Below, in pieces: positions 23,276 through 32,052 of a DNA stretch of 64,000 nucleotides. The notes beneath the pieces were generated by a model that was not told the origin of the DNA, searched no databases, and worked only from the letters and a program-made list of their open reading frames with translations. The DNA lies in the NCBI RefSeq assembly GCF_005877885.1, contig NZ_VCHY01000014.1, positions 62,001-126,000 on the forward strand, in the 5' to 3' direction. Numbering within the stretch: position 1 is the stretch's first letter; the number at the start of each line of letters is the position of its first letter. The translations under genes were made by a program, and so were the position numbers. This DNA is from Labilibacter sediminis. GTDB lineage: Bacteria > Bacteroidota > Bacteroidia > Bacteroidales > Marinilabiliaceae.

Positions 23276-23782
23276 ATGAAAAATATTATCATTTTTCTTA
23301 TTTGCTTAGGTTTCCAAACCGTGGTTATAGCTCAGGACTGCATAAAAGGTCAGGATACACGACCCTTGAATACAACCAGCATAAACCTATTGGGGAATGC
23401 ATCGCTTATTTCGCTTAATTACGAGAGGCTTTTTAAGGTCCATCCTAAAGTTCTTATAGGAGGACAACTAGGCCTTGGTTATAATGAGGAATTTGTTTTA
23501 TGGGGTGGTGAAGCAGAATCTTTTAGTACCATTCCGATACAAGTAACCGGAAATTTTGGAAAAAATAAAAGTATGCTTGAGTTTGGTATTGGTTATACCA
23601 TAATTAATGATTTAGATAAGTATACGAAAAACATTGCATATTCAACCATTGGTTACCGACTACAACCTCTTAAAGCCGAAAAAATAAATTTCAGAGTGTT
23701 TGTGATGCTACCAATAACTGATACGGATAACACTTCTATTATTTTTATCCCAATTGGTATAAGTTTTGGGCAATGCTTTTGA
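23276..23782 (+). CDS. Predicted outer-membrane beta-barrel protein
   Basis: The 168-residue protein has a signal peptide ending near 'VVIAQ' and then alternating hydrophobic/polar strands with Gly and aromatic residues ('GGQLGLGYNEEF', 'MLEFGIGYTI'). The C-terminus ends in 'GISFGQCF', with a final Phe as in outer-membrane barrels. Two cysteines, one at each end of the mature protein, could form a disulfide. I do not recognise a specific family. It is a single gene between the salvage operon and the accessory island. Confidence 0.7.
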   Translation: MKNIIIFLICLGFQTVVIAQDCIKGQDTRPLNTTSINLLGNASLISLNYERLFKVHPKVLIGGQLGLGYNEEFVLWGGEAESFSTIPIQVTGNFGKNKSMLEFGIGYTIINDLDKYTKNIAYSTIGYRLQPLKAEKINFRVFVMLPITDTDNTSIIFIPIGISFGQCF

Positions 23783-23801
23783 AGCTCAAAGGAGCATCAA
23801 A
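23778..23801. terminator. Convergent-gene hairpin overlapping two stop regions
   Basis: TTTGAAGCTC (23778-23787) and GAGCATCAAA (23792-23801) pair with one A-A mismatch. The hairpin spans the stop codons of the two convergent genes and has a T-rich flank. Confidence 0.5.
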
Positions 23802-24324
23802 TTTTAGTTTGTTTACTGTAATGACTTATCTCAAATAATTTCTCCAGGCTTCCTAAGAATTTAAGTTGGTATAAACCTATCGACAGGCTCGATATTATCA
23901 GGAACATTTTGTGTTTAAGAATAAAGCCGTTTTTGAAATCTACTTCAAGGTAGCTAAAAAAAACTGCAATAATTATTAAAGCCCCCAATACTGCCAAAAT
24001 ACCACTTGTAATAATTCTCTGGATATATAATCTTTTATCTATTACATCAGGTAAACGTAACTCCATAGGATCTGGATTATCCTTTAAACTTTCTATTTCA
24101 TTTCTTTCTTTATCATTCTTTAAAAATAGAGAACAGGCAATGGTGCCCCCTATGGCACCATAAAAGTATTGCTTAAATAATTCTGAACATATTTGTCCAA
24201 ACTGACTATTTATCCATATTTCCACAGCATTAAAGTTTATCATCAATATCAGAAATGCGTGAATAATAAAACTAATAAATATTGACTTGCTAATTTTTTT
24301 GTATTCAGATAAATCCATAGTCAT
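23797..24324 (-). CDS. Multi-pass membrane protein of unknown function
   Basis: The 175-residue product has three or four membrane segments: 'SIFISFIIHAFLILMI' near residue 20, 'FYGAIGGTIACSLFL' near 60, 'IITSGILAVLGALIIIAVFF' near 110 and 'MFLIISSLSIGLYQL' near 150. A charged loop ('KNDKERNEIESLKDNPDP') separates the middle segments. There is no recognised domain. It starts three bases after the stop of an upstream short ORF and is divergent from the M19-like gene, so it may belong to the same accessory island. Confidence 0.65.
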   Translation of the reverse strand: MTMDLSEYKKISKSIFISFIIHAFLILMINFNAVEIWINSQFGQICSELFKQYFYGAIGGTIACSLFLKNDKERNEIESLKDNPDPMELRLPDVIDKRLYIQRIITSGILAVLGALIIIAVFFSYLEVDFKNGFILKHKMFLIISSLSIGLYQLKFLGSLEKLFEISHYSKQTKI

Positions 24325-24905: not shown

Positions 24906-26402
24906 ATGCAAGTCTTTGATCTACATTGTCACCCTACTTTAAAACCAATGCTGTCTTTACCACAAAAAAGAGTGACGCCCTGGGAAGAAATTGATAACAT
25001 ACTGAATAAAATTTTCGATTCTCAATCCAATTGTAAGCAGTTGTTGCAAGGCGGTTGTAATGTGGCATGCGTTGGATTGTCTGCAATAGAAACAGCATTT
25101 TTAAAAGACTGGATTGTTAAAGTAGCATCAGGTCCTGTGCGTTATATTGATAGAGATCAGGTTGAAAATATTGCCAATGCAGCTGCGGGAGCTACATATG
25201 AAGATATCATGGAACAGGAAATTAATTCTATTATTAATCATCCGGTGCTTTCAGGTACCAATGGTATGAAAGTTAAATGGATTAATTCTGTTAATGATTA
25301 CGATAAAAATGATATGACTACCCTTCATCTTATTGCCACACAGGAAGGTGGACATGGACTGTATTATGGTTCAAATGAAGATAATGATATCAATAAAATT
25401 TTGGATAGAGTTAAGGAACTAAAGAAAGCATCACCGGTTAGACTCTTTTATGTTACGCTTACGCATATAAGTCAAAATGTATTCGCCAATCATTGTTACG
25501 CCATTAAGGTTCTTCCTAAAAGAAGATTTTTTCCTCAGACAAATGGAATATCGAATGATGGATATAAAGTTATTGAGGCTTTGTTAAGTGAAGAAAATGG
25601 TAAACCAATACTGATTGATATAAAACACCTTAGCCTGGCCTCCCGGATAGAGTTTTATAGCAAATATAATCACCGTCCAATTATAGCTTCACATGCAGCA
25701 GTAACCGGATGTAGTTACAAGAATAAACCGATTTTTAAAATCAGGAAAAAGAATAATCACGATGTTTATAAAGTAAAATATACACGACAACGTGGGTATT
25801 TTCCAGGTACTTTTTTTAATCCTGACAGTATTAACTTATATGATGAGGATATTAAGGAAATCATAAAATCAAATGGAATTATCGGGCTTATTTTGGATGA
25901 AAGGGTTTTGGGGTTTTCGAAAAGACCTACAAGTAAAGAGTTTATTAGTGATTTGGAATGGTCAAAGTTTATATCGCCTGATGAAATTAGGCATATGAAA
26001 GAATTGACTCCGGAGGAGGATCTTTTAGATGATCTTGAAGATGAGAAAGAAGAGTCGGAGGAGGAAATGCTTCTGGCAGGACATGGGCCTAAAAGATCAA
26101 AGCAGTTTGAAGAATTACATTTGCTTCATCTTTTAAATAATATCATCCATATTATCATGATTGGTAAGAATATGGGTGTTGATGCCTCAAAACATATCAC
26201 CATAGGTTCAGATTTCGACGGATTAATTAATGCTGTGGATTGTTGCCTTTTTGCCAGCGAATATTCTGATTTACGTAAAAAACTAAAAGAAACTATACTT
26301 GAACAATCAGCTGCAAAAATCATGATTCCGAATGTTGATTCATTCCTGGATGACTTCTTTTATAATAATGGTGTCAATTTTTTAATGAAGAATTTTAAAT
26401 AA
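24906..26402 (+). CDS. M19 (membrane dipeptidase)-like metallohydrolase, divergent
   Basis: The 498-residue protein follows the M19 renal dipeptidase motif order: 'DLHCHP' with His7 and His9 (usual form HxD), 'ATQEGGHGL' with Glu147, 'TLTHISQNVFANH' with His187, 'IIASHAAVTG' with His263 and 'IGSDFDG' with Asp436. These match the positions of the dizinc ligands. It is 100 or more residues longer than typical M19 enzymes; the extra part includes an acidic stretch around residues 365-390 rich in Glu and Asp. There is no signal peptide, so it appears cytoplasmic. Six bases separate it from the alpha/beta hydrolase gene. A dipeptidase or a related amidohydrolase reaction is likely; the true substrate is unknown. 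Confidence 0.82.
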   Translation: MQVFDLHCHPTLKPMLSLPQKRVTPWEEIDNILNKIFDSQSNCKQLLQGGCNVACVGLSAIETAFLKDWIVKVASGPVRYIDRDQVENIANAAAGATYEDIMEQEINSIINHPVLSGTNGMKVKWINSVNDYDKNDMTTLHLIATQEGGHGLYYGSNEDNDINKILDRVKELKKASPVRLFYVTLTHISQNVFANHCYAIKVLPKRRFFPQTNGISNDGYKVIEALLSEENGKPILIDIKHLSLASRIEFYSKYNHRPIIASHAAVTGCSYKNKPIFKIRKKNNHDVYKVKYTRQRGYFPGTFFNPDSINLYDEDIKEIIKSNGIIGLILDERVLGFSKRPTSKEFISDLEWSKFISPDEIRHMKELTPEEDLLDDLEDEKEESEEEMLLAGHGPKRSKQFEELHLLHLLNNIIHIIMIGKNMGVDASKHITIGSDFDGLINAVDCCLFASEYSDLRKKLKETILEQSAAKIMIPNVDSFLDDFFYNNGVNFLMKNFK

Positions 26403-26408
26403 TAATTT

Positions 26409-27371
26409 ATGCTTTTTATAACAAACAGAGAACCCGTAGAATATAGTGAATTTAAAGAAGAAAGACCTTTTATGTTTGATTATAAACGAACAGGTCCTTG
26501 CAATGGTGTTTTTTATTGCGAAAGAACCAACAAAGAAAAATACAGGGAGATTGGGTCGGATACTTTTATGCAAAGACTAAAAGAAAGTAAATCGAAACAG
26601 TTGCTTTTATTTATTCATGGGTTTTCTAACCTTCCGGAACCGGATATATTCCCAAGGGTAAAAATGCTTCAAAAACTTTTTGATGAAAAGGAAGAAGGTT
26701 TAGTTGAAGTGGTACCCCTAATTTGGCCTTGCGACAATGATTTTGGCATTGTAAAGGATTATTGGGATGATCAAAAAGCTGCTGACCTGAGTGCTGTTTC
26801 TTTTGCTCGTGTTTTAAATAAGTTTATGAAGTGGAGAGAGAAGGCGCCAGAAGATAATCCGTGTTTAAAAAGAATTAATATTCTTGCTCATTCTATGGGG
26901 AACAGAGTGTTGCGTGAAACGCTTTCGAAATGGAATAAATATGATTTGGCCAATGGAGTTCCCTTGCTTTTTAGAAATACCTTTTTAATGGCCTCTGATA
27001 TTGTAAATGAGTCCTTGGAACCCTCTAATGAAGGATATTTGATAACACAGGCATCCAGAAATGTATCGGTATATTTTGCTTCTGACGATTTGGCCTTAAG
27101 AGCTAGCAAAATCTCTAATTTAAAAAACAAAGTTGCATCCAGAAGGCTGGGACATTCTGGTCCTGAAAATATGACTAAAGTACGAACTAATGTATATGCC
27201 ATAGATTGTGACAATTTCAACAATACATACGATAATCCCAAAGGTCATTCCTATTTTCTTCGAGATGATAAGGGTATGCCGGGTAAAGTTTTTGAACATC
27301 TATATAATTCTATAAACACAGGAAGGATTTATGTAACAGACAAGCAAAACAGAAGTATAATTTTAGAATAA
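26409..27371 (+). CDS. Alpha/beta hydrolase, DUF900-like
   Basis: This 320-residue protein has the alpha/beta hydrolase core. 'LLLFIHGFSN' (His70) forms the oxyanion-hole strand and 'NILAHSMGNRVL' contains the nucleophile Ser162. A late 'GHSYFL' supplies a candidate catalytic His. The overall layout resembles the DUF900 family of esterase-like proteins. There is no signal peptide. The gene is packed six bases after the M19-like gene, so the two are almost certainly cotranscribed. Substrate unknown; lipase, esterase or a signalling-ester hydrolase are possible. Confidence 0.85.
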   Translation: MLFITNREPVEYSEFKEERPFMFDYKRTGPCNGVFYCERTNKEKYREIGSDTFMQRLKESKSKQLLLFIHGFSNLPEPDIFPRVKMLQKLFDEKEEGLVEVVPLIWPCDNDFGIVKDYWDDQKAADLSAVSFARVLNKFMKWREKAPEDNPCLKRINILAHSMGNRVLRETLSKWNKYDLANGVPLLFRNTFLMASDIVNESLEPSNEGYLITQASRNVSVYFASDDLALRASKISNLKNKVASRRLGHSGPENMTKVRTNVYAIDCDNFNNTYDNPKGHSYFLRDDKGMPGKVFEHLYNSINTGRIYVTDKQNRSIILE

Positions 27372-27559
27372 GGATTTATGTAATGTCGGACTGTGTAGTT
27401 AGATAATTGTATATAATCTATACTACTTACTTTTTAGATTAATTGCTCAAATCCTCACAAATGAATTGGCCTTATTTTCAAGTATAAATTGTCAGATTCA
27501 GTAACACTTTTATCATGAAAATTCTCTATTAATAAGCTGAATTCGATATGAAATTATTG

Positions 27560-27772
27560 GCTCAGACCGCTTATAAACATTTAGTTTCAAGAAATATTTG
27601 TGACGACATAGCGGGCTATGACTAACAAATATGACACAGAAAATGGATGTTTATAAGTGGAATGTGTGCGCTTTTCATTAAATAATCCATTTACTGCTTT
27701 AAATTTTCTCACCATAGCTCGCTATGTTTCGAAAATTTACATTGTAAATCAATCATCTAATGAAATCTGAGC
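27560..27772. repeat. Composite nested palindromic element
   Basis: The element is bounded by GCTCAGA (27560-27566) and TCTGAGC (27766-27772). Inside are two consecutive nested palindromes: 27567-27660 (outer CTTATAAACAT/ATGTTTATAAG, middle ATATTTGT/ACAAATAT, core CATAGC/GCTATG) and 27673-27765 (outer TTTCATTA/TAATGAAA, middle AAATTTTC/GAAAATTT, same core). It fills most of the gap before the protease-nuclease gene. Confidence 0.8.
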
Positions 27773-27850
27773 TCTTTATTTTTAATCGAACTTAGGTTAA
27801 TATTTAATACGGATAATAAATAAACTTTTTATTACAAAATCGAATGCATT

Positions 27851-29926
27851 ATGGGAACGGTTGTAAAAAGTTATCTGGAAGGGATAATTGAAGATGTGGA
27901 AAAAAGACTTCCTAATATTAAGGAGCAAGTAAGAATTATGGAAGATGCCATATCAAAAAAAGGAGATTGGCGTAAAGTTGAAGATGCCGGCAGGTTATTG
28001 TTTAGGCTAAATAAGTTATCCTTAAAAAAGGAAGCTTCAAAATTGGTTGAAATGCCAACAGGTACGGCTGAAGGATTCAATGTTCTGGAAAGAATTATTA
28101 AAGAAAATGAGCTCATGCCTATATCGTTTATGTACAAAGGTGCTTTGGCAGCCAGAACGGTAGGTAGAGTGGTGGTAAGAAATGATGATGGTATCATGGG
28201 TTATGGTACAGGTTTTATGATATCTCCTAATTTAATGATTACGAATCATCATGTATTAGAAGATGTTAGTACTGCGCGCTATAGTCTTTTTGAAATGAAT
28301 TATCGGGAGACAGATGAGGGCTTGAGTAATTCAGAGTTTTTCAGACTTGAGCCGGATGAGTTTTTTATAGCTAACGAACATCTTGATTTTGCCATCGTTG
28401 CGGTTGATGTAAGCAATTCCAACGGAAGTTTAATCAGTAAATACGGATTCAATAAAATCATTAAAGAATCCGGAAAGGCAGTAGTTGGTGAGTGCGTAAA
28501 TCTGGTTCAACATCCTGCAGGGGAGCCGAAGCAAATTGTTATACGTAATAATAAAATTATTGGCATAAAAGATGAATTCGTTCATTATGTGGCTGATACA
28601 ATGAAAGGCTCTTCCGGTTGTGTGGTTTATAATGATAATTTTGAAGTGGTAGCTTTGCATCATGCCGGCAAACCAGCAAGGGATAGTCATGGTAATATAT
28701 TACTTACTGACGGAACAGTTTGGGATGGAAGTCGCTTAACTATGGATATGATTCATTGGGAAGCCAATGAAGGAATAAGAATAAGTAAGATCTTTGAATA
28801 TCTCGATAGTATAATACATGAATATGATGCACCAAAACAAAGGTTGTATCAGGAAATTTTTACTTCAACACCTGCAATTAGCAACATCTGGAATGAAAGT
28901 ACATCCAATATTGGAAATGTAAATCAGGTGGTTAATGAACCCGATGGTTCATTAAGTATGTACCTTAAAGTAAACTTTTCCGGGGCTACTGCTCTGCCAT
29001 CAATTTCAGTAAAAGATACTGACTCAGGGAACGGACATGTTCTTAAACCAACCAATGGGCATAACAAACACACTGCCAAAGTAATAGTGGATAATGCGTA
29101 TCGAAATCACGATTATTATAACGAAGAAACGGATATAAATGATCGCAAAAGCTATTATGGTAATATTGATTTAAATGATTCGCCGGATGCTTTATTTAAA
29201 GCCTTGTCGAAACATATTAACAATACACACGCTAAGGTGCTATGTTATAGAGAAGCACGGCATGAGTATTTATATCCACTTGTTGATATTCATGAGTTTG
29301 GAAAGTTGCGTAATATATATTCGGGTGATGTTTTGAGTCCTGAAGAAATCATAAGTAAAGAACTTGATTTAATAGAAAGGTATGAACACGAATTTAATTC
29401 AATTCTTACATCCGAGAGCTATCATAGCGATCAGGAGCGCTTAGAAGCATATGATATGTTTGAGGCTAGTTTGCCATTTAATTGTGAGCATGTTGTACCT
29501 CAATCGTGGTTTAATAAAAGAAACCCAATGCGCGCCGACCTGCACCACTTGTTTACATGCGAACCAACTTGCAATAGCTTTAGAAGTAATATTCCTTACT
29601 GGGAGTTTGGTCCATTAGATGAAATAGTTCGAACCAAATGTGGCAGACGAGAGTCCAATAAATTTGAACCATTACATGGACATGGGGCTGTTGCCAGAGC
29701 TACATTGTATTTCTTACTTAGGTACCCGGGTGAAGTTGGAGATGCAAACAGAGAAATGCAAAAAGACAGGTTGAGTGTTCTTTTAGGTTGGCACAAAAGC
29801 AATCCGGTTACACGATATGAATTACACCGTAATTATACCATTTTTGAAATTCAGGGAAATAGAAATCCGTTAATAGATTATCCTGATTTAGCCGATAAAA
29901 TCAATTTTAATTTAGGAATCGATTAA
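27851..29926 (+). CDS. Trypsin-like protease fused to Endonuclease I-type nuclease
   Basis: The 691-residue protein has three parts. Residues 1-100 are helical and charged with no recognised domain. Residues about 105-310 form a trypsin-like protease: 'TNHHVLED' gives His134, 'LDFAIVAVD' Asp179 and 'KGSSGCVVY' Ser255, a complete triad. Residues about 430-691 resemble the Endonuclease I/His-Me finger family: 'REARHEYLYPLVDIHEFGKL', 'NCEHVVPQSWFN' with His547 and 'ADLHHLF' with His565/566, then 'CNSFRSNIPY'. No signal peptide is seen, unlike secreted endonucleases I, so it appears intracellular. It follows the M19 and hydrolase genes by 479 bases. A conflict or defence role is suggested by the toxic domains and by nearby hipBA and integrase remnants. 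Confidence 0.85.
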   Translation: MGTVVKSYLEGIIEDVEKRLPNIKEQVRIMEDAISKKGDWRKVEDAGRLLFRLNKLSLKKEASKLVEMPTGTAEGFNVLERIIKENELMPISFMYKGALAARTVGRVVVRNDDGIMGYGTGFMISPNLMITNHHVLEDVSTARYSLFEMNYRETDEGLSNSEFFRLEPDEFFIANEHLDFAIVAVDVSNSNGSLISKYGFNKIIKESGKAVVGECVNLVQHPAGEPKQIVIRNNKIIGIKDEFVHYVADTMKGSSGCVVYNDNFEVVALHHAGKPARDSHGNILLTDGTVWDGSRLTMDMIHWEANEGIRISKIFEYLDSIIHEYDAPKQRLYQEIFTSTPAISNIWNESTSNIGNVNQVVNEPDGSLSMYLKVNFSGATALPSISVKDTDSGNGHVLKPTNGHNKHTAKVIVDNAYRNHDYYNEETDINDRKSYYGNIDLNDSPDALFKALSKHINNTHAKVLCYREARHEYLYPLVDIHEFGKLRNIYSGDVLSPEEIISKELDLIERYEHEFNSILTSESYHSDQERLEAYDMFEASLPFNCEHVVPQSWFNKRNPMRADLHHLFTCEPTCNSFRSNIPYWEFGPLDEIVRTKCGRRESNKFEPLHGHGAVARATLYFLLRYPGEVGDANREMQKDRLSVLLGWHKSNPVTRYELHRNYTIFEIQGNRNPLIDYPDLADKINFNLGID

Positions 29927-30467: not shown

Positions 30468-30525
30468 TAATATATTGGCTATATATTGAATTTATAGCTA
30501 TATTTGTCTAATATATTAGCTATAT
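30468..30525 (+). promoter_or_regulatory. hipBA promoter with repeated operator elements
   Basis: TTG (30475-30477) and TATATTTG (30499-30506), 21 bases apart, match a Bacteroidota promoter. The 17-mer TAATATATTrGCTATAT occurs at 30468-30484 and 30509-30525. The shorter rGCTATAT recurs at 30477, 30496 and 30518, spacings 19 and 22. The repeats overlap both promoter elements and the hipB start, fitting HipB autorepression. Confidence 0.7.
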
Positions 30526-30802
30526 GTATTCAATAAATCCAACACCTCACGATATAGGTAAGGAATTGGCTAAGCGTCACAAGGCCTTACGTAAACAATT
30601 AAAATTGTCTCAAGCTGAAATGGCAGAACGCTCAGGTGTTTCTTTAGGTAGTTTAAAGCGATTTGAAACTACTGGTCAAATATCCCTGGAATCACTGCTT
30701 AAGTTAGCTCACCTTCTTGATAGACTGGAAGATTTTAAGTTGGTCTTCCGGCCCAAAGAAGATTTGGGCAATATTGAAGGCCTTTTCTCAACTAAATCAT
30801 AA
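30524..30802 (+). CDS. hipB: HipB-like XRE antitoxin
   Basis: The 92-residue protein has a clear XRE/Cro helix-turn-helix: 'LKLSQAEMAERSGVSLGSLK' with recognition helix 'LGSLKRFETTG'. Short HipB proteins repress the hipBA operon and hold HipA inactive. It starts 14 bases before hipA and its start codon lies within the second promoter repeat. The C-terminus ends with 'FSTKS', without the longer tail seen in some HipB proteins. Confidence 0.88.
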   Translation: MYSINPTPHDIGKELAKRHKALRKQLKLSQAEMAERSGVSLGSLKRFETTGQISLESLLKLAHLLDRLEDFKLVFRPKEDLGNIEGLFSTKS

Positions 30803-30816
30803 GTAAAGAATCTGTT

Positions 30817-32052
30817 ATGGATAATATCAAAAATATTTTGGTGTCTTTGGAGCTTGAAGGCCAAAGTTATGAGGTAGGAGAAATGGTAAGGGATAATCGA
30901 ACTATCTACTTTCGCTATTATGCAGATTTTTTAAAATCAGGACTTAATATTTCGCCAATTAAGTTGCCTTTTAATAGTGAAATAAATACAGCCGGTTTAG
31001 AACCATTTGATGGGTTGTATGGTGTTTTTAATGATTCGTTACCTGATGGTTGGGGAAGGCTGTTATTGGATCGTACACTTGCATCTAAAGGAGTAAACAT
31101 ACAAAGTTTAACCCCATTAGATCGTCTGTCTTATGTTGGGGATCATGGGATGGGAGCTTTGATTTATAAACCAAAGTTTGATGAAGATGTTGTACTATCC
31201 TCAGAAATTGAACTGGATATGATTGCTCAGGAAATGAGCTACATTTTAAAAGGAAGTGATTCTGACATTATTGAAGAACTTTTTACTTTGGGAGGTTCTT
31301 CTGGGGGAGCTCGTCCTAAAATATTTGTTGGCTACAATAATCTCACCAATGAATTAATGCATGGTCATCAACGATTATCAGAAGGTTTTGAAGATTGGAT
31401 TATAAAATTTCAATCGTCCCCTGATCCCAAAGAAATAGCTAATATTGAATATGCTTATCACAAAATGGCATTAAAGGCAGGACTTGAGATGAGCGATTGT
31501 AAATTATTTTCTGGCCGATCAGGACAAACCTATTTTGGTACTAAACGCTTTGACAGAATTAAAGAGAAAAGAATTCATATGCATACTGCTAGTGGATTGA
31601 TGCATGATAATTTTAGAATGAGCACCATGGATTATGGACATTTAATGGATTGTGCATTTCAGCTTGAAAAACATGTAAACGCCTATAAAAAAATACTGCG
31701 CTTGGCAGCCTTCAATGTGTTTGCTCACAACAGGGACGATCACAGTAAGAACTTTTCTTTTTTAATGGATGCTAAAGGCCATTGGAGTTTCGCTCCAGTG
31801 TATGATCTGACTTTTTCAAATTCAGCTTATGGTTTTCACAGTACTATGGTTGCCGGAGAGAGCAAAAATCCGGGAAGGAAACATTTGTTAGAGTTAGGAA
31901 AACATTTTGGAATAAAGAAACCGGAGTTAATATTGGAAGAAGTGCAAGAGGCCGTCTCACTTTGGGATTCAATCGCTAAAGAGTGTGGAGTGTCTCAATC
32001 TACTAATCGAACAATTGAAAAGGCAATAAATGAAGTGAATAAAAATGAATAA
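30817..32052 (+). CDS. hipA: HipA-like serine/threonine kinase toxin
   Basis: HipA proteins phosphorylate targets such as glutamyl-tRNA synthetase and cause growth arrest. This 411-residue member has the N-terminal subdomain ('FDGLYGVFNDSLPDGWGRLL'), the glycine-rich 'TLGGSSGGARPK' that includes the autophosphorylation loop, the catalytic 'FAHNRDDHSKNFSF' and 'APVYDLTFS' as the metal-binding DLT segment. All key motifs are intact, so it is probably active. It forms a pair with hipB. The pair is flanked by two related integrase 3' ends (30087-30115 and 32122-32150), suggesting insertion as a unit. Confidence 0.93.
   Translation: MDNIKNILVSLELEGQSYEVGEMVRDNRTIYFRYYADFLKSGLNISPIKLPFNSEINTAGLEPFDGLYGVFNDSLPDGWGRLLLDRTLASKGVNIQSLTPLDRLSYVGDHGMGALIYKPKFDEDVVLSSEIELDMIAQEMSYILKGSDSDIIEELFTLGGSSGGARPKIFVGYNNLTNELMHGHQRLSEGFEDWIIKFQSSPDPKEIANIEYAYHKMALKAGLEMSDCKLFSGRSGQTYFGTKRFDRIKEKRIHMHTASGLMHDNFRMSTMDYGHLMDCAFQLEKHVNAYKKILRLAAFNVFAHNRDDHSKNFSFLMDAKGHWSFAPVYDLTFSNSAYGFHSTMVAGESKNPGRKHLLELGKHFGIKKPELILEEVQEAVSLWDSIAKECGVSQSTNRTIEKAINEVNKNE

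Follow-up and report, generated by a model that had tools for sequence, protein, structure and literature searches.

Proteases coupled to nucleases have been predicted or described in bacterial conflict systems. In System 3 of Kaur et al. 2020 (PMC7159879), a trypsin-like domain is fused to a NucA nuclease and a proteolytic cascade is predicted to deploy this nuclease. In the CARD-NLR-like system LypABC of Caulobacter crescentus (PMC13236601), LypA is composed of CARD-like helices, a trypsin domain and an ATPase, LypB is NLR-like and the nuclease of LypC was aligned with Vibrio Dns and NucA-type enzymes alike; the substitution S296A in LypC abolishes lysis, the substitutions H471A and N505A do not, and the LypC homologue of C. 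endophyticus is described as having no nuclease. Finally, Tuck et al. 2025 (PMC12799240) reported, in connection with Hachiman, AVAST and canu loci, a trypsin-like protease activating a separate pro-nuclease of the metallo-β-lactamase type. Here, we analyzed a stretch of 64,000 nucleotides of Labilibacter sediminis (contig NZ_VCHY01000014.1, positions 62,001 to 126,000; hereafter the window) and especially its gene P0003, which encodes in one chain of 691 residues a trypsin-like protease and an Endonuclease I (EndoI). An earlier note had proposed P0003 and two upstream genes, P0001 and P0002, as a candidate conflict system; its premise that protease-nuclease coupling is known from such systems is sound, this coupling being predicted by Kaur et al. 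2020 (PMC7159879) and partly tested in LypC (PMC13236601).

Protease and nuclease domains of P0003

The protease part of P0003 matches the Pfam family Trypsin_2 over residues 119-269 (E 1.5e-14), and the triad H134/D179/S255 lies where the earlier note had placed it and does not vary among the 60 aligned rows, one of which is P0003. In a model of the whole protein based on 60 sequences (mean predicted local distance difference test score, pLDDT, 83.1; predicted template modelling score, pTM, 0.55), the trypsin part resembles FAM111A, DegS, HtrA and V8-type proteases (Z 20.5-22.9 for the 50 matches listed), the best match being a FAM111A entry (Z 22.9, 214 residues, 2.5 Å), followed by DegS and HtrA1 (both Z 21.8) and a second FAM111A entry (21.6). 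FAM111A, V8 and HtrA proteases thus have the same fold as this part of P0003, whereas by sequence Spl proteases, and not FAM111A, are the nearest (profile search, E 3.5e-12 and 3.2e-7, respectively); we know of no nuclease fused to proteases of the FAM111A, V8 and HtrA types. T250 and H270, kept in 60 and 59 of the 60 rows, are aligned to a threonine and a histidine of V8 that we take to be T164 and H184 of its glutamate pocket, a position which predicts cleavage after glutamate, and the protease of P0003 is probably glutamate-specific like V8. Every one of the 60 rows also matches the PADLOC profile RT-Protease_XI with its trypsin part (best E 2.1e-11), for which a general likeness between trypsins may account.

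Regarding the nuclease part, Endonuclease_1 (PF04231) is matched over residues 541-678 with 98.1 bits against a cut-off of 25 (E 8.3e-28), and Pfam gives no match to Endonuclease_NS in P0003 at E up to 1. The model of residues 396-691, built on 41 sequences (pLDDT 82.5, pTM 0.83), was aligned with the Vibrio Endonuclease I Vvn (PDB 1oup; Z 13.2, 166 residues, 4.2 Å), and six Endonuclease I entries are found at Z 12.4-13.2, the next unrelated chain reaching only 3.7. Fold and motif are common to Vvn and P0003, in which the motif reads NCEHVVPQSW and includes E546 and H547; N575 and R578 are also present. Among the relatives of P0003 with an EndoI (see below), NCEHVV[P/C]QSW[F/Y] is kept in all 47 members with a complete nuclease half, none of them being without the motif, the remaining two of the 49 being interrupted or truncated; this conservation is partly due to selection, since the EndoI profile was built from members chosen by motif. 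The nuclease is joined to the protease as the earlier note had claimed, in one stop-free open reading frame (ORF) on which Pfam and fold agree, and the structural check of the active sites that it had proposed left this reading standing, with trypsin and nuclease folds both aligned in the models.

Vvn is periplasmic according to its PDB title, whereas the EndoI of P0003 follows a protease in a protein whose N-terminus is without a signal-like stretch. A simple hydropathy scan, with no dedicated signal-peptide predictor, found neither a hydrophobic N-terminus nor a membrane stretch in P0003, in agreement with the absence of a signal peptide put forward earlier, and the protein is probably intracellular. 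Its residues 1-85 form a helical region in which three arginines are conserved, R19 in 57, R48 in 52 and R52 in 55 of the 60 rows. Neither EAD nor CARD was among the 15 Pfam families found in these 60 rows, a search of PDB sequences with a profile of 16 N-termini brought no credible match (the best, at E 0.044, being a designed protein) and, in fold searches with the whole P0003 model, the matches were taken up by the protease part. Of the charged helical N-terminus that the earlier note had seen as a possible sensor or adaptor, the conserved helical region is retained, and no sensor or adaptor family was recognised by Pfam or profile.

Spread, payloads and neighbours of the chassis

A profile of the protease part was searched against species genomes, and the best 80 of at least 567 relatives, among 595 pattern stretches, were retained. 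The family has in common a unit of helical N-terminus and trypsin domain, hereafter the chassis, to which different C-terminal enzymes are joined; the proportions of C-terminal domains, or payloads, over these 80 loci are no census. The chassis is present in cyanobacteria, streptomycetes and other actinobacteria, proteobacteria, planctomycetes, chloroflexi, acidobacteria, myxococci, nitrospirae and bacilli, in the bacteroidota Dyadobacter and Olivibacter and also in two archaeal metagenome-assembled genomes (binning errors possible). In the window's class, 295 genomes were sampled and 5 contain it (E up to 1e-15). In the class of a Methylobacterium genome (G654, the source of locus L104), which was sampled for LypC-like relatives, the only one of 240 genomes with a match at E 1e-25 was this genome itself. 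Some part of P0003 is matched by 99 of 72,556 plasmids, one of them over at least 80% of P0003. Among phages, two records without annotation match P0003, in its nuclease part only, and two scans of viral contigs found no relatives of P0003. Such a sparse spread across phyla fits horizontal transfer.

By profile, the payload is an EndoI in 49 of the 80 loci and a NucA-type nuclease in 15, both profiles being built from motif-chosen members of these same loci, and neither in 16. Among the latter, four are cut by contig ends (L072, L077, L089, L138), seven carry by motif a phospholipase D (three, with paired HKD), a lipase (three, with GHSLG) or GHSLG together with a subtilase (one), and five are complete ORFs without recognised payload (L064, L076, L087, L095, L116). 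A Pfam scan of P0003 and 59 of the 80 loci (21 being left out as cut, short or near-copies) gave Endonuclease_1 in 37 of these 60 rows, Endonuclease_NS in 14, PLDc_2 and Lipase_3 in 3 each and Peptidase_S8 in 1. On the protease tree, the payload needs 8 changes (the minimum being 4) against a mean of 19.6 after shuffling, a count as low being obtained in 0 of 200 shuffles, and when only well-supported branches are considered, 3 changes for EndoI and 2 for NucA are still required; these are quick trees with single-test support, in which L106 was left out and L128 was unlabelled despite its EndoI match (E 1.7e-99). The payload has therefore been inherited and yet exchanged several times. The linkers of 34 of the 80 chassis proteins (e.g., L066, L104 and L132) contain a strand-like W-T-x-P-L, according to one regular expression, which is common to different payload types and absent from the linker of P0003.

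Several plasmid loci add to this diversity of architectures. On a Geminocystis plasmid (L033, 1468-9448), the chassis bears a payload with GDSW that is SGNH-like by eye, and its gene is followed by genes for cell-wall hydrolases (GH19, amidase and murein endopeptidase). A Mesorhizobium plasmid copy has an extra segment, EEP-like by eye, before EndoI. In Lysinibacillus fusiformis (plasmid locus L038, 6003-7774), a subtilase gene overlaps a P0003-type EndoI gene by one base; being two genes, they extend the link between protease and EndoI beyond the trypsin chassis.

To describe the gene neighbourhoods, a simple caller was used to select 141 adjacent ORFs (those of high-GC loci may be spurious), of which 128 were scanned; near-full flanks were available on both sides in about 46 of the 80 loci and not in about 34. 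The commonest Pfam family in these 128 neighbours is Peptidase_S8, with 6 occurrences against at most 3 for any other (first 25 of 173 families), and PADLOC at 1e-10 returned subtilase 6 times, IetS 4 times, mad2 twice and, once each, caspase, PycC, DolB and others. In the all-against-all comparison, an S8 family recurs in 8 loci, and a family without assignment also in 8, the latter in varied places and on varied strands; there are smaller sets as well, some of which are probably antisense ORFs. No recurrent partner gene was accepted from these three approaches, and the chassis family is mostly single-gene, as far as seen. The earlier note had named homologues that are usually single and unlinked, in housekeeping contexts, as an outcome that would speak against its proposal, and single, unlinked homologues are largely what was observed: relatives of P0003 are usually without a recurrent partner. 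Individual loci are of a different make-up, with a trypsin-NucA gene preceded, at a distance of 58 bases, by a gene for a NACHT NTPase in Rhizohabitans arisaemae (L110, 6708-11025), a subtilase gene 35 bases upstream of a NucA-type member (L091) and, in Microvirga arvi (L095, 4415-9143), a payload-less chassis followed within about 25 bases by a protein of 1168 residues with a calcineurin-like phosphoesterase domain.

Proposed function and the genes around P0003

P0003 might by itself constitute a cytosolic killing effector under the control of its protease, of the same kind as the NucA-trypsin proteins and LypC and with EndoI as payload, a reading that in our judgement has about an even chance of being right. 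In its favour are the presence of both catalytic sites, both folds in the models, the N-terminus without a signal-like stretch and the different destructive C-terminal domains borne by one and the same chassis. In such a mechanism, the helical N-terminus would hold or recruit P0003 until a signal (phage, mobile element or stress) causes clustering. The trypsin domain, probably glutamate-specific, would then be activated and cut its own disordered linker or other targets; P0003 does have the catalytic residues and a linker modelled with low confidence. Finally, EndoI would be freed or unmasked, DNA would be degraded and the cell would die or stop growing. More tentatively, and with the odds against it, the chassis may define a large family, spread over many phyla, of suicide proteins that act on their own, in which a glutamate-specific trypsin arms its own exchangeable payload without NLR or partner: most often EndoI, as in P0003, but also NucA, phospholipase D, lipase, subtilase and perhaps an SGNH-type hydrolase.

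Several observations weigh against P0003 being such an effector. Within the window's class, P0003 has a match at E up to 0.001 in 165 of the 295 genomes, the rows listed being mostly for the nuclease half, and EndoI alone is common there while the fusion is uncommon. The pTM of the whole P0003 model means that the placement of the domains is not predicted, so masking of the nuclease stays hypothetical. No enrichment in defence genes is visible among the 128 neighbours of relatives (raw counts, no matched control set), and no sensor partner was recognised by Pfam among the neighbours of P0003 in the window. Moreover, lysis by LypC needs its catalytic serine and not its nuclease residues (PMC13236601).

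This last result leads to the alternative that the protease itself is the true effector or relay, acting on a cellular target or a downstream lysis factor, and that the nuclease is stabilising or optional as in LypC. Besides the substitutions in LypC and the nuclease-free homologue of C. endophyticus (PMC13236601), the 5 of 80 members that are complete and have no recognised C-terminal enzyme would be explained in this way; on the other hand, every one of the 47 EndoI members with a complete nuclease half has the motif, albeit partly by selection, and exchange of the payload is commoner than its absence. We regard this alternative as rather unlikely, though deserving serious weight.

A role outside conflict, with P0003 serving intracellular turnover of DNA or protein in starvation or development, would agree with the recognised neighbours of the relatives, most of which, judged from the first 25 of 173 Pfam families, belong to ordinary metabolism. 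Streptomyces and Nostoc-type bacteria, in which developmental cell death occurs, are also frequent among the family matches listed. The patchy spread of the chassis, limited to 5 of 295 genomes in one class and 1 of 240 in the other, argues against such a function, which we consider distinctly unlikely. In polymorphic toxins, a protease is known to precede the toxin, and P0003 could likewise be an antibacterial toxin, exported or injected and then processed by its own protease after delivery. Some relatives adjoin cell-wall hydrolases, as on the Geminocystis plasmid, and a DUF4157 gene lies near a relative in a Streptomyces record. However, the N-terminus of P0003 lacks a signal-like hydrophobic stretch, neither Baseplate_J nor VipB was matched in the genome (two markers only, which divergent systems could escape), and there is no obvious immunity gene, as no ORF of at least 80 amino acids lies between P0003 and hipB; next to relatives, only S8 stood out, although the unassigned family recurs in 8 loci. 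Export is thus improbable, and the intracellular effector described above is the reading retained here.

That P0001, P0002 and P0003 form one conflict system is very improbable: the three hydrolases lie on the same strand within 5 kb and beside hipBA and an integrase remnant, but the trio was not found in any other locus searched, a dispersed repeat sits in the 479-base gap before P0003, 11 of 12 P0001 relatives have no DUF900 neighbour and the nearest plasmid relatives of P0002 have no P0001-like gene. The identity of the two upstream genes is as stated in the earlier note, with Pfam scores above the cut-offs: P0001 matches Peptidase_M19 (E 4e-17; 62.8 bits, cut-off 26) and contains the motifs HCH at 7 and GSDFDG at 434, and P0002 matches DUF900 (E 2.4e-18; 66.9 bits, cut-off 20.5). 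The three ORFs follow each other on the forward strand as described, P0001 and P0002 being 6 bases apart (Table 1). Their union in one system is not supported: by tblastn at E up to 1e-4, genes like P0001 or P0002 were found in 0 of the 80 genome loci around P0003 relatives and in 0 of 8 plasmid loci (L031-L038) matching P0003 in whole or in part, and they were also found in 0 of 5 further loci of the window's class with such matches. The trio as an operon was rejected on these grounds.

P0001-like proteins are encoded in 31 of 295 genomes of the class (E up to 1e-10). From this set, 12 M19 neighbourhoods were sampled in 10 genomes (L142-L151, L155 and L156), one being that of a paralogue in the window's genome, and in 11 of them no DUF900 gene is adjacent; in the twelfth (L142, 6671-9352, genome G127), a DUF900-like gene, 25% identical to P0002, lies 3 bases upstream of the M19-like gene, in reversed order. 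P0002-like proteins were found in 7 of 395 genomes of the phylum, the window's own included (E up to 1e-12), and the closest ones seen are encoded on plasmids of Dinoroseobacter (55.6%) and Salipiger (43.9%). No P0001-like gene was present in five DUF900 neighbourhoods (L168-L172) or in the plasmid loci L059 and L060. A conserved M19-DUF900 pair was therefore also rejected, the arrangement being known in two places and not general. P0001 and P0002 look like a separate neighbouring pair, with no support for a role in the function of P0003. On a Hymenobacter plasmid (L061, 4171-11296), an M19-like protein is encoded between a subtilase and N-acetylmuramoyl-L-alanine amidases.

Table 1. Features of the P0003 locus (positions in the window)
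Feature	Positions	Strand	Basis or remark
P0001, M19-like metallo-hydrolase	24906-26402	+	ORF list, Pfam; neighbour, membership in system not supported
P0002, DUF900 alpha/beta hydrolase, AHSMG at residue 160	26409-27371	+	Pfam; neighbour
Dispersed element bounded by terminal inverted repeats	27533-27799	.	between P0002 and P0003
P0003, trypsin-like protease fused to EndoI, 691 residues	27851-29926	+	core of the finding
P0003, N-terminal helical region, residues 1-85	27851-28105	+	model, 60-row alignment
P0003, trypsin-like domain, residues 85-338	28103-28864	+	model, alignment
P0003, linker: low-confidence stretches 349-359 and 372-401, helical extension before the EndoI fold	28865-29230	+	
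P0003, EndoI fold, residues 461-679	29231-29887	+	model, motif
Tyrosine integrase remnant, 71 residues	30084-30299	-	Pfam
hipB-like and hipA genes	30524-32052	+	context only

The element in the gap between P0002 and P0003 has 36 matches in the genome, of which 22, this copy included, are near full length with 71-100% identity. It is about 270 bases long and bounded by terminal inverted repeats, with the consensus ends TAACCTGAGTTCGA and TCGAACTCAGGTTA (20 copies), and ten copies have both inner CATAGCNNGCTATG palindromes, 106-107 bases apart. This dispersed element is like a miniature inverted-repeat transposable element (MITE) or a REPIN, and its presence further weakens the case for one operon.

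The source genome comprises 6.36 Mb in 372 contigs and is matched once by P0003. The local G+C content is unremarkable (0.341, 0.349 and 0.366 for P0001, P0002 and P0003, respectively, against 0.354 for the window). The left flank contains sugar-nucleotide enzymes, and the ORFs 23276-23782 and 23797-24324 are without Pfam family; to the right are the integrase remnant, hipBA, an AraC-type regulator and L-fucose isomerase. As announced earlier, hipBA and a decaying integrase are close by: hipA matches HipA_C (E 6.3e-45), and the single remnant matches Phage_integrase (E 6.7e-10) at the C-terminal end of the profile only.

Comparison with known systems

As in System 3 of Kaur et al. 2020 (PMC7159879), where trypsin and endonuclease are in one protein, sometimes with a subtilisin peptidase, P0003 has a trypsin-like protease and has it fused to a nuclease. 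It has no NucA domain, its nuclease being an Endonuclease I in place of the NucA/Endonuclease NS of System 3; among the relatives with the same chassis, Endonuclease_NS does occur, in 14 of 60 rows. The EAD1, STAND and second protease that are optional in System 3 (PMC7159879) were not recognised in P0003 or in 10 neighbours in the window, and "Endonuclease I" does not occur in the main text of that article. In the open-licence literature, supplements aside, we recognised no published account of a trypsin-EndoI fusion.

LypC (PMC13236601), compared here by its description only, has the same order of trypsin-like domain, flexible linker and endonuclease, the latter ending at residue 662, in comparison with the 691 residues of P0003. 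As described there, it works with LypA and LypB, whereas Pfam reveals no such genes among the neighbours of P0003 in the window. LypC may itself be EndoI-like, which would make P0003 less new. The pairs of Tuck et al. 2025 (PMC12799240) likewise associate a trypsin-like protease with a DNase for self-destructive immunity, as proposed for P0003; their nuclease is of the metallo-β-lactamase type and encoded separately, whereas that of P0003 is an EndoI and fused, and no Pfam match to a nuclease of their type was found in P0001-P0004 or in 10 neighbours in the window.

P0003 adds a variant with EndoI to the known trypsin-nuclease proteins, and the earlier note was half right: its fusion is confirmed, its three-gene system is not supported. 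Protease-activated nucleases in bacterial immunity have been reported recently, but with an unrelated nuclease in a separate gene (PMC12799240); if the function proposed here is true, the single-gene version with its exchangeable payload would offer a compact and readily tested model of proteolytic effector control. A protein of the P0003 type would also show whether LypC, which needs its protease but not its nuclease, is typical or exceptional.

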